44,547 bases of DNA from Thauera phenylacetica B4P (lineage in GTDB: Bacteria; Pseudomonadota; Gammaproteobacteria; Burkholderiales; Rhodocyclaceae). The position numbers and the translations under genes are program-made. Shown in pieces: positions 369 through 44,547 of this stretch. Where the stretch lies: NCBI RefSeq assembly GCF_000310225.1, contig NZ_AMXF01000009.1:1-44547 (forward strand), given 5' to 3'. Below the pieces are notes generated by a model, which made no database searches, was not told the DNA's origin, and saw only the letters and a list, made by a program, of their open reading frames with translations. Positions within the stretch are counted from its first letter, which is position 1, and each line of letters begins with the position of its first letter.

Positions 369-965
369 ATGGAACTGCACCTCATCCGCCACCCCCGTCC
401 CGACGTCGCGCCCGGCATCTGCTACGGCCAGACGGACGTCGGCCTGGCCGAATGCCCCGCCACGGTGGCAGACCGCCTGCGGCCGCTGCTGCCGGAATCG
501 TTCGCCCTGCACGCCAGCCCTCTCTCGCGCGCGCGCCTGCTCGCCGAGGCACTGGGCAAGCCGCGCCTCGACGACAGACTCAAGGAGATCCACTTCGGCG
601 ACTGGGAGGGGCGCAGCTTCGACGACATCGGCGCCGCCATCGACGACTGGGCTGCCGATCCGCTGGGGTTCCGGGCGCCGGGCGGCGAATCGCCGCGCGA
701 GATGGCGGCACGCGTGCTGGCGTGGCTCGCGGAGCAGGGAAATAGGGGACAGACCCCGATTTCATCTGAAATTGGGGTCTGTCCCCTATTTCGCCACCCG
801 GAGCACCTCGTCGTCGTCGCCCACGGCGGCCCGCTGCGCGCCATCGCCGGCCACCTCCTCGGCATGCCGCCGGAGCGCTGGCTGGGGCTGGACTTCGGCT
901 GCGGGCAGGTGACGCGGATCGACGTGGAGAGCTGGGGGGTGGTGCTGAAGTGGTTCAACCGCTGA
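369..965 (+). CDS. cobC: Histidine phosphatase, alpha-ribazole phosphatase (CobC) type
   Basis: 198 aa. Members of this phosphoglycerate-mutase-like family dephosphorylate alpha-ribazole 5'-phosphate in cobalamin nucleotide-loop assembly. The N-terminus reads LIRHPRPD with the catalytic His at residue 8, followed by CYGQTDV, typical of CobC; the second catalytic His is at 152 in VVAHGGPLR. The frame is open from 267, but the ATG at 369 is where family similarity begins and earlier codons lie in REP sequence. Residues about 125-141 are encoded by a 54-bp perfect-type palindrome inserted in frame between the conserved motifs. No other cobalamin gene is visible, so its partners are probably left of the window. 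It could be another histidine phosphatase, but the RHPRP...CYG pattern favours CobC. Confidence 0.85.
   Translation: MELHLIRHPRPDVAPGICYGQTDVGLAECPATVADRLRPLLPESFALHASPLSRARLLAEALGKPRLDDRLKEIHFGDWEGRSFDDIGAAIDDWAADPLGFRAPGGESPREMAARVLAWLAEQGNRGQTPISSEIGVCPLFRHPEHLVVVAHGGPLRAIAGHLLGMPPERWLGLDFGCGQVTRIDVESWGVVLKWFNR
739..792. repeat. Palindromic element inserted in frame inside cobC
   Basis: Two 26-nt arms (739-764 and 767-792) separated by 2 nt are inverse complements except for one G-T type mismatch. Each arm carries the core GGGGACAGACCCC or its complement, bounded by AAAT/ATTT. Length is 54 nt, divisible by three, and it contains no stop in the cobC frame. Related shorter palindromes occur at 19371, 38453 and 39115. 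Such palindromes resemble REP-like units mobilised by REP-associated tyrosine transposases, but no such transposase gene is in the window. Confidence 0.9.
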
Positions 966-3145: not shown

Positions 3146-3181
3146 GCACAATTTCGAGTCCCATGCACCGCGACGGTTTCC

Positions 3182-3276
3182 TGTAGGAGCGCCGGCAGGC
3201 GCGAAAGCCGCCTTGCGGTGCACGGCGCGGGGGAAGAAGCCCGACTGCCGCATTCGCGCCTGCCGGCGCTCCTACA
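3182..3276. repeat. Inverted pair of REP elements (BIME)
   Basis: A REP in one orientation at 3182-3205 faces one in the other orientation at 3253-3276, across a 47-nt spacer. It follows the ELM1 gene and may stop or stabilise its transcript. The interval 3146-3358 holds nothing else recognisable. Confidence 0.85.
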
Positions 3277-3358
3277 GAAACCCATCGCCTCTCCAGGGCT
3301 CCGGGCCCGCCGCCGACCTACAATACCGCCATCCCCCGAACCGGATCGGAGCACCGCC

Positions 3359-40542: not shown

Positions 40543-40892
40543 GACGTAACGGGTGCGCTTCCGTTCCGTGTGGGAGTGGCGGAAGGCGGGAAGGCTGTGG
40601 TTGCGTTGATGCGGTTATTCGGAGGCTGCATTCGCGCCTGCCGGCGCTCCTACAGGGGCAACGGGTCCGCGGCGGCTTGTGTAGGAGCGCCGGCAGGCGC
40701 GAATGCAGCCGTCGGATCGTGCCAATGCGCCGAATGCTGCGCCGCCGTGTTCGCGCCTGCCGGCGCTCCTCATTAGACGGTGCGCTTTCGTTTTGCGCTG
40801 GAGCGGCGGAGGGTTGAAAGGCTGCGGTTGCGTTGGGCGACGCGGTTGTTCGGAGGCTGCGTTCGCGCCTGCCGGCGCTCCTACAAAAAAAC
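40543..40892. repeat. REP cluster with an inverted copy of the 1-300 array unit
   Basis: Four REP cores lie at 40631-40654, 40680-40703 (opposite direction), 40750-40770 and 40862-40885. Positions 40696-40753 equal the inverse complement of the spacer of the 119-bp unit at 1-300 in 56 of 58 bases. A second, about 100-bp, imperfect tandem pair (from about 40550 and 40780) ends in CGGAGGCTGC before a REP. No gene is seen in this 412-nt interval. Confidence 0.85.
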
Positions 40893-42379: not shown

Positions 42380-42526
42380 GAGCACCGGCAGGCGCGAACG
42401 GCGGCGGTGCGGGTGGCACGCGCATCGATTGCCAGGAGGCTGCGGTTCGCGGCTGCCGCCGCTCCTACATAAGCCGCAAGCGCGCCCGTCGCCGAGTGCC
42501 CCTGTAGGAGCGCCGGCAGGCGCGAA
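42375..42526. repeat. REP cluster after manB copy 2
   Basis: Three REPs: 42375-42398, 42446-42469 (GCGGCTGCCGCC variant, opposite direction) and 42503-42526. The first overlaps the manB stop. The remainder of the 304-nt interval up to 42683 holds no gene and no convincing promoter; a C/T-rich stretch precedes rfbA. Confidence 0.85.
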
Positions 42527-44101: not shown

Positions 44102-44547
44102 GTAGGAGCGGCGGCAGCCGCGATGGCTGCGGGTCCATTGGGTGCTGCGCTTGGTCAATGGCCGACTTCGCGCCTGCCGGCGCTCGTGCAGGGGCACGGA
44201 GACGGGTGCGCTCGCGGAGAATGTAGGAGCGGCGGCAGCCGCGATGGCTGCGGGTCGGTTGGGTGCTGCGCTTGGTCAATGGCCGACTTCGCGCCTGCCG
44301 GCGCTCCTACAGGGGCACGGAGACGGGTGCGCTCGCGGTGAATGTAGGAGCGGCGGCAGCCGCGATGGTTGCGGGTCCATTGGGTGCTGCGCTTGTTCAA
44401 TGGCCGACTTCGCGCCTGCCGGCGCTCCTACAGGGGCACGGAGACGGGTGTGCTCGCGGTGAGTGTAGGAGCGGCGGCAGCCGCGATGGCTGCGGGTCGG
44501 TTGGGTGCTGCGCTTGGTCAATGGCCGACTTCGCGCCTGCCGGCGCT
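44102..44547. repeat. Tandem REP/BIME array, 121-bp unit, 3.7 copies
   Basis: Units begin at 44102, 44223, 44344 and 44465 and run to the window end. Each has the GGAGCGGCGGCAGCCGCG form and, facing it, the GCGCCTGCCGGCGCTCCTAC form, separated by a conserved spacer distinct from that of the 1-300 array. Copies differ at only a few bases. The array starts 6 nt after the rfbC stop. Open frames within it reflect the repeat period, not genes. Confidence 0.9.

Follow-up and report, generated by a model that had tools for sequence, protein, structure and literature searches.

Insertions within bacterial proteins are usually expected to break the protein. In Thauera phenylacetica B4P, a gene of the CobC type carries a 54-bp palindrome that is read in frame, and this raises the question of what the element is, how it came to lie there, and how an enzyme would accommodate it. 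We addressed this within the 44,547-nucleotide contig that holds the gene (the whole stretch analysed, hereafter the window), in the rest of the host genome, and across related genomes.

The initial annotation had described 739-792 as a near-perfect inverted repeat, a multiple of three in length and free of stops in the cobC frame, that would form a strong hairpin in the mRNA, and all of this was borne out. An inverted-repeat search over the window returned two 26-nt arms, 739-764 and 767-792, that are 96% complementary across a gap of 2 nt. Upon folding 739-792 as RNA, we obtained a single predicted hairpin of -45.8 kcal/mol against a shuffle mean of -14.1 (z -10.5; 0 of 200 shuffles equalled it), in which 739-763 pairs fully with 768-792 in 25 pairs around a loop of 4 bases, while the same stretch folded as DNA gave -26.1 kcal/mol (z -10.9). 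The half-unit is a 25-nt hairpin, GAAATAGGGGACAGACCCC(A/G)ATTTC, that is itself palindromic and occurs in two inverted copies. Hence, the element consists of two units set head to head around a spacer of four bases and is built like a REPIN: two REP hairpins, inverted orientation, and a short spacer (Table 1). Neither a GTAG nor a CGTC tag was found at either end of 739-792, which sets it outside the GTAG and CGTC REPs. At 54 bp the element keeps the frame, two of the three frames on each strand are free of stops, and cobC reads it as NRGQTPISSEIGVCPLF within an ORF that stays intact throughout.

Table 1. Features of the palindrome and its host gene, in positions of the window
Feature	Position	Strand	Basis
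cobC, alpha-ribazole phosphatase (198 aa), with in-frame insert	369..965	+	Pfam His_Phos_1, TIGR03162, invariant R7/H8/H152
54-bp palindrome, a REP doublet (REPIN-like), read N-R-G-Q-T-P-I-S-S-E-I-G-V-C-P-L-F	739..792		Repeat search, folds and frames; similar doublets with other spacers elsewhere
Left REP unit GAAATAGGGGACAGACCCCGATTTC, own hairpin of -9.4 kcal/mol as RNA	739..763	+	RNA fold; exact core GGGGACAGACCCC
Spacer/hairpin loop, four bases	764..767		RNA fold
Right REP unit, inverted copy of the left	768..792	-	Inverted-repeat search and RNA fold

By its profile matches, the product of 369-965 would be a histidine phosphatase closest to the alpha-ribazole phosphatase CobC, an enzyme of vitamin B12 metabolism. 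It matches Pfam His_Phos_1 (E 4e-29) with both catalytic histidine motifs, as well as TIGR03162 ribazole_cobC (E 7e-43), where in its lengthened form it scores 146.1 bits, under the cut-off of 162.9. R7, H8, and H152 were invariant in an alignment of 50 CobC rows (A1, which leaves out the genus and family rows L025, L036, L038, L074, L076-L081, and L085, the REP-bearing L080 and L081 among them), and the element thus lies between the catalytic His8 and His152 motifs, as had been proposed. An AlphaFold2 model from this alignment reached a mean pLDDT of 92.3, falling to 71 over residues 121-130 and 51 over 131-140, with residues 137-141 below 50, and placed the insert between a helix (109-125) and a strand (146-151). 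The natural reading of the model is that the extra loop leaves the CobC core alone; with its core kept and its insert predicted to be disordered, it agrees with the earlier picture of a loop added to an otherwise normal enzyme. A search of solved structures returned distant relatives only (best 3hjg, E 2e-11), and as their alignments show the loop unclearly, its position is taken from the aligned orthologues together with the model.

The earlier assignment of residues 125-141 to the element was right in location and not in exact range, as the element touches codons 124-142. Similarly, of the claim that about 18 residues were added, the insertion stood and the size did not: at 198 residues the protein exceeds the common length of 183 by 15, which leaves a clean addition of exactly 18 codons unsupported. 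A net gain smaller than the element was seen in cobC (15 of 18 residues) and in uvrA (~14 of 19 in G158, G166, and G172), as if a few target codons had been lost at insertion in both genes. For cobC, the difference between 15 and 18 residues indicates that the insertion was not a clean addition or that the loop had previously changed.

Comparison across orthologues placed the insert within a single lineage. The loop between a helix ending in WL and the strand VVVAHGG measured 11-12 residues in 22 of the 33 rows of a cobC tree (16 rows from the genus Thauera and 6 from other genera), and all 22 of the 22 rows outside one subclade were without the insert, in line with the orthologue check proposed for an in-frame insertion. 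Loops of at least 15 residues occurred in 11 rows that form one Thauera subclade (support 100/99) and correspond to a single length change on the tree, which was built with the loop excluded and in which the 6 rows chosen as outgroup fail to separate from the rest and 9 of the 30 inner branches are open. Of the 29 Thauera-genus genomes, G158, G162, and G165 gave only weak CobC matches and are absent from the tree. A homologue search had matches in 129 of 150 genomes, from which the best 30 places were taken as loci; a few distant matches span more bases (630 in G025, 645 in G144, and 675 in G059).

All 11 expanded loops differ from one another. Six of them contain the GGGG unit, and two of these six also hold a second REP-like palindrome. 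Full doublets are present in the window, G153, and G164, with spacers that vary among cobC loops (CATCTG, CCGCGG), whereas the loop of G157 has two tandem part-units in a different reading frame, and those of G170 and G173 have a single GGGG unit each (in G173 with one core base different), after which a second type of palindrome, GTGGGAGCGGGC..GCCCGCTCCCAC, follows in frame. The nearest kin of the window on the tree, G159 and G103, lack the GGGG unit in their long loops. An orthologue with the same residues in palindrome-free codons would have spoken against an insertion; the orthologues with similar residues, G153 and G164, carry the palindrome itself. As far as the aligned sequences tell, 739-792 is an in-frame insertion in cobC, and cobC is a subclade-specific hotspot for the GGGG-type doublet.

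A set of 79 named cobC loci, which largely repeat the same genomes and include Thauera aminoaromatica S2 and Thauera sp. 28, could be read at the loop in 39 cases (L190-L228), with 9 expanded and 30 short; 29 of the short loops measured 10-11 residues, and L219 was also seen to be short. One of these loci, L192, stems from a metagenome-assembled genome labelled Pseudomonadales (Gw_SlDig_bin_13) and has a Thauera-subclade cobC with a loop nearly equal to that of G164; its contig is probably mis-binned. In the G153 doublet (L060), both arms share departures from the consensus, GTAATGGGGG / CCCCCATTAC, which are missing at the three other exact-core loci of that genome, hinting at arm-to-arm correction in place or at the insertion of a variant.

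Searching the host genome for the arm and for a REP-associated tyrosine transposase, as the initial annotation had recommended, we found the 25-nt unit to recur beside a Y1 transposase gene. Exact cores GGGGACAGACCCC lie elsewhere in the genome at C49:14996, C49:15831, and C53:18209, and those on C49 adjoin the gene for a 253-aa Y1 transposase (Pfam Y1_Tnp, 48.8 bits against a cut-off of 23). At this locus, the transposase gene spans L057:2422-3183 on the minus strand, and units were located at L057:1491 and L057:2326, with a degenerate unit near 3240, upstream of the gene. The sole NCBIfam match of the transposase is REP_Tyr_transpos (NF047646; E 1e-18), at 67.7 bits and thus below the curated cut-off of 80. 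The host genome therefore combines a RAYT-type (Y1) transposase with flanking units, as a REPIN system does, and GGGGACAG in the C49 units beside the transposase fits GGGGWSAS, a motif of TIRYT repeats. Classic REPs are present in hundreds of copies; the 4 merged exact-core loci of the host genome fall short of the high copy number of REPINs. Judged from its sequence and surroundings, the element is probably mobile, presumably by transposition.

The association between doublet and transposase extended beyond this genome. With a threshold of at least 50% identity over at least 150 aa, transposase relatives were present in 13 of 17 genomes with an exact doublet versus 4 of 17 hand-picked genomes without one (Fisher p 0.005), the best match having an internal stop in 3 of the 13 positives (G166, G335, and G357). 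The four doublet genomes without a close full-length transposase were G153, G023 (with a 26-aa remnant), G347, and G381. A near-exact unit occurred in the fetched flanks of 3 of 18 transposase loci, including those of G172 and G292, and in none of the other 15. Of another six Thauera genomes in which units or repeats occur, G172 alone passed the transposase threshold; G170 and G158 hold transposase remnants, and G171 has 8 unit loci and no transposase relative.

We consider it likely that 739-792 is a REPIN-like doublet that was inserted in a length-tolerant loop of CobC and is read through as a disordered loop, with mobilisation, translation, retained activity, and neutrality of the loop all presumed. 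The element would consist of two head-to-head REP hairpins with the core GGGGACAG, would be mobilised as such elements may be by a REP- or TIR-associated Y1 tyrosine transposase (RAYT/TIRYT), and would have entered the surface loop between the helix and the strand named above. We propose three reasons for the survival of the insert: the net change in length preserved the reading frame, two of its three frames are stop-free, and the loop is no part of the conserved core. Ribosomes reading through the element would then yield a CobC with a disordered extra loop, putatively active and unharmed by it. Within one Thauera subclade, the cobC loop may have gained or rearranged such repeats several times, much as the uvrA and polA linkers and the apbE N-terminus would have done.

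The same diversity could instead be decay, if a single REPIN had entered at the base of the subclade and was then scrambled, shortened, or lost by slippage and template switching without repeated transposition. That the 11 expanded loops form one clade with one change in loop length accords with such an ancestral entry, as do the nearly identical loops of G164 and L192, the tandem duplication of part-elements in G157, and the right flank TATTTCGCCACCCG that G157 and the window have in common. However, the presence of REPs on the cobC tree requires at least 4 changes, in counts that do not distinguish gain from loss, and a single REP clade of the six rows was rejected (p-AU 0.00017); moreover, the offsets from the conserved helix, the spacers, and the frame vary, and G170 and G173 bear an unrelated second palindrome. 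We therefore regard a single ancestral insertion as rather unlikely. One change in loop length together with at least four changes in REP presence suggests that the loop became permissive once and that units were then repeatedly gained or lost. An assembly or contamination artefact, to which the 681 contigs of the host assembly might point, is hardly credible, since comparable cobC inserts are present in the assemblies of Thauera sp. 28, UBA6194, and Go_UH_bin_156 and since the single-contig genomes G170 and G173 have repeats in the same loop.

Beyond cobC, the doublet recurs in frame within other genes. The exact doublet pattern was detected in 17 of 395 family genomes, and its reversed control in none. 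Upon manual placement of 27 of the 28 exact doublets (the remaining one being in G292), 15 lay in frame inside conserved genes, at odds with the extragenic location of REPINs: uvrA (in three species of one genus and in G166), polA, a NuoF-like gene, leuS, an Atg22-like MFS gene, an acyl-CoA synthetase, a 4Fe-4S protein, murE, valS, tonB, and cobC twice. Five more stood at the N-termini of exported proteins (apbE twice, flgH, and a cytochrome c/d1 protein twice), whose start codons are uncertain, and two between genes or at gene ends. None of the five read in G292 was counted as an in-frame interior copy: those at L086 and L103 are in ORFs without a Pfam match, that at L102 is in no long ORF, and the fifth is L104:1943. 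In G292, a doublet at L104:828-872 directly precedes the second half of a Transposase_31 match (profile positions 87-200), and as the first half is out of that frame, it possibly broke a dispensable gene.

Gene identities were supported by Pfam searches and, for murE and valS, by family or structure searches. In the NuoF-like gene and the acyl-CoA synthetase, the insert is inside the Pfam domain itself, while in ValS it falls between aligned blocks of which one ends at residue 653 and the next starts at 693. For murE, 14 readable relatives lack the insert and have 69-77 residues in this naturally variable loop, versus 85 with it (5 of the 20 loci gave no readout).

A survey of single cores in Thauera, which overlaps with the family survey of doublets, gave 62 exact cores in 12 of 29 genomes, merging to 43 loci, against 1 match for the reversed control (in G150). 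By manual reading, backed by Pfam matches, 16 of the 43 loci were in gene interiors (uvrA 7, cobC 5, polA 3, metH 1) and 4 at N-termini (apbE 3, a UDG-family gene 1); 5 lay beside transposase genes or remnants, 2 upstream of an apparent purE as judged by eye, and 16 were intergenic or without class. The ORFs around six Thauera copies (L130, L139, L150, L152, L154, and L158) gave no Pfam matches, and the copies at L117 and L156 precede the likely starts of a glyoxalase gene and an rsfS gene.

A linker of uvrA seems to accept several kinds of insert. The open stretch of 1,499 aa around the C53 core of the host genome has UvrA domains and is of the uvrA type; it reads the core in frame as EIGDRPQF, and further along that linker comes a GTAG-type palindrome, likewise in frame. 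In G165 and G156 this linker segment, read at 19 of 24 loci, counts 56 residues; with a doublet it reaches 70 (G158, G166, and G172), and with both repeat types 101-104 (G000, G159, and G103). Other repeat-like peptides were observed in the linkers of L278 (G151) and L292 (G048), namely RGDPPGRPYG and a T-, G-, and E-rich run, the latter in G048. At the N-termini of exported proteins (apbE, flgH, and the cytochrome c/d1 protein), doublets or single units stand directly before the hydrophobic part of the signal peptide (L092, L093, L094, L097, L105, L123, L144, and L153), where they could either alter the signal peptide or place a hairpin at the start of translation.

The reading frames in use bear on whether the encoded peptide itself is kept. 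The NRGQTPIS frame is used in cobC, polA, and murE, the EIGDRPQF frame in most uvrA copies, valS, leuS, metH, and tonB, and the NRGLSP frame on the other arm also by interior copies; the stop-bearing third frame was not seen among interior copies. Interior copies in the open frames and not in the stop-bearing one fit opportunistic survival better than a selected peptide. The palindrome could alternatively be a dedicated protein-coding module, selected as a peptide in the manner of the Rickettsia RPE, for which the frequency of in-frame copies (the 15 of 27 doublets above) might speak; the use of two frames, of the NRGQTPIS and EIGDRPQF types, means that no single peptide is kept and rules out a fixed one, leaving this reading improbable. 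Still less probable is that the hairpin acts as a regulatory RNA inside cobC, despite its very stable predicted fold: no T-run follows position 792, which speaks against a terminator or attenuator, cobC outside the subclade does without the element, and the same hairpin resides inside unrelated genes. With the opportunistic REPIN-like insertion as the preferred reading, a broader view is possible, which we put forward tentatively: a low-copy class of REPINs might be sheltered mainly inside proteins, tolerated through its two open frames in linkers of housekeeping enzymes that are flexible. The linkers of cobC, uvrA, and polA and the apbE N-terminus might then be landing sites used again and again, where repeats of two unrelated REP families pile up, and an element driven by a RAYT would keep making new protein loops in free-living Betaproteobacteria.

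Palindromes within coding genes have precedents. In its passages on REPs of the GTAG and CGTC families, a survey by Di Nocera et al. (2013, PMC3733652) describes units in frame inside genes, often as dimers, many of them in genes of DNA synthesis and repair (uvrA, DNA polymerase I) and others in those for tRNA synthetases; Thauera is named among the hosts, and recB of two Xanthomonas species carries REPs at roughly one and the same site. The 54-bp element resembles the units of these passages in being a short palindrome, a dimer, in frame, and in similar target genes, and differs from them in its GGGG core without either tag. The same passages describe TIRYTs as Y1 transposases flanked by inverted repeats, some with GGGGWSAS, many of the repeats forming dimers or clusters, and excerpts of PMC6006769 place TIRYT proteins mostly in TnpA-REP subclass 2.1. 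Like these TIRtrons, our system has a Y1 gene with flanking repeats, and its GGGGACAG fits the GGGGWSAS that is a motif of some TIRs only; unlike them, GGGG dimers sit in frame inside genes, a situation described for the TIR type neither in the passages of PMC3733652 nor in the literature searched. The REPINs of Pseudomonas fluorescens SBW25, as described in parts of PMC3116915, likewise consist of two inverted REPs forming one long hairpin, but there 14 of 1,067 sixteen-mer copies overlap genes, while the GGGG copies are few with a large share inside genes. The Rickettsia palindromic elements, an older case of palindromes in coding genes, are ~150 bp long and encode a conserved peptide according to passages of PMC3733652 and PMC10969869; GGGG palindromes share with them the in-frame position within unrelated genes and differ in measuring 54 bp in cobC and in using two frames instead of encoding one conserved peptide. 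In-frame REPs of the GTAG/CGTC families and of Rickettsia are thus already published, and what is new is the GGGG class, its high coding share, and its repeated occurrence in the same linkers.

It is an old proposal that novelty in proteins can be created by selfish palindromes. Here, one small class of palindrome appears to have added loops to UvrA, PolA, LeuS, ValS, MurE, and CobC in related species, and insert-free relatives provide natural controls for cobC and murE. These controls make the proposal directly testable, with the cobC loop as a natural before-and-after series.

The window also holds palindromes of another kind, to which the initial annotation had related the 54-bp element. 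Their sequences are unrelated to 739-792, being of the TGTAGGAGCGCCGGCAGGCGCGAA type with a GTAG tag, and kinship is ruled out on that ground; the tag is that of the GTAG REP superfamily as portrayed in passages of PMC3733652. GTAG-type units were located at 65-242, 3170-3288, 39196, 40617-40717, 40876, 42446-42526, and 44222-44493, many as inverted pairs of TGTAGGAGCGCCGGCAGGCGCGAA and TGTAGGAGCGGCGGCAGCCGCGAA variants, and just upstream of cobC a unit of ~120 bases carrying them is tandemly repeated (1-300). A Thauera RAYT with Pseudomonas-like REPs was noted earlier in a passage of PMC2817692, and that description fits the GTAG-type units of the window rather than the GGGG class.
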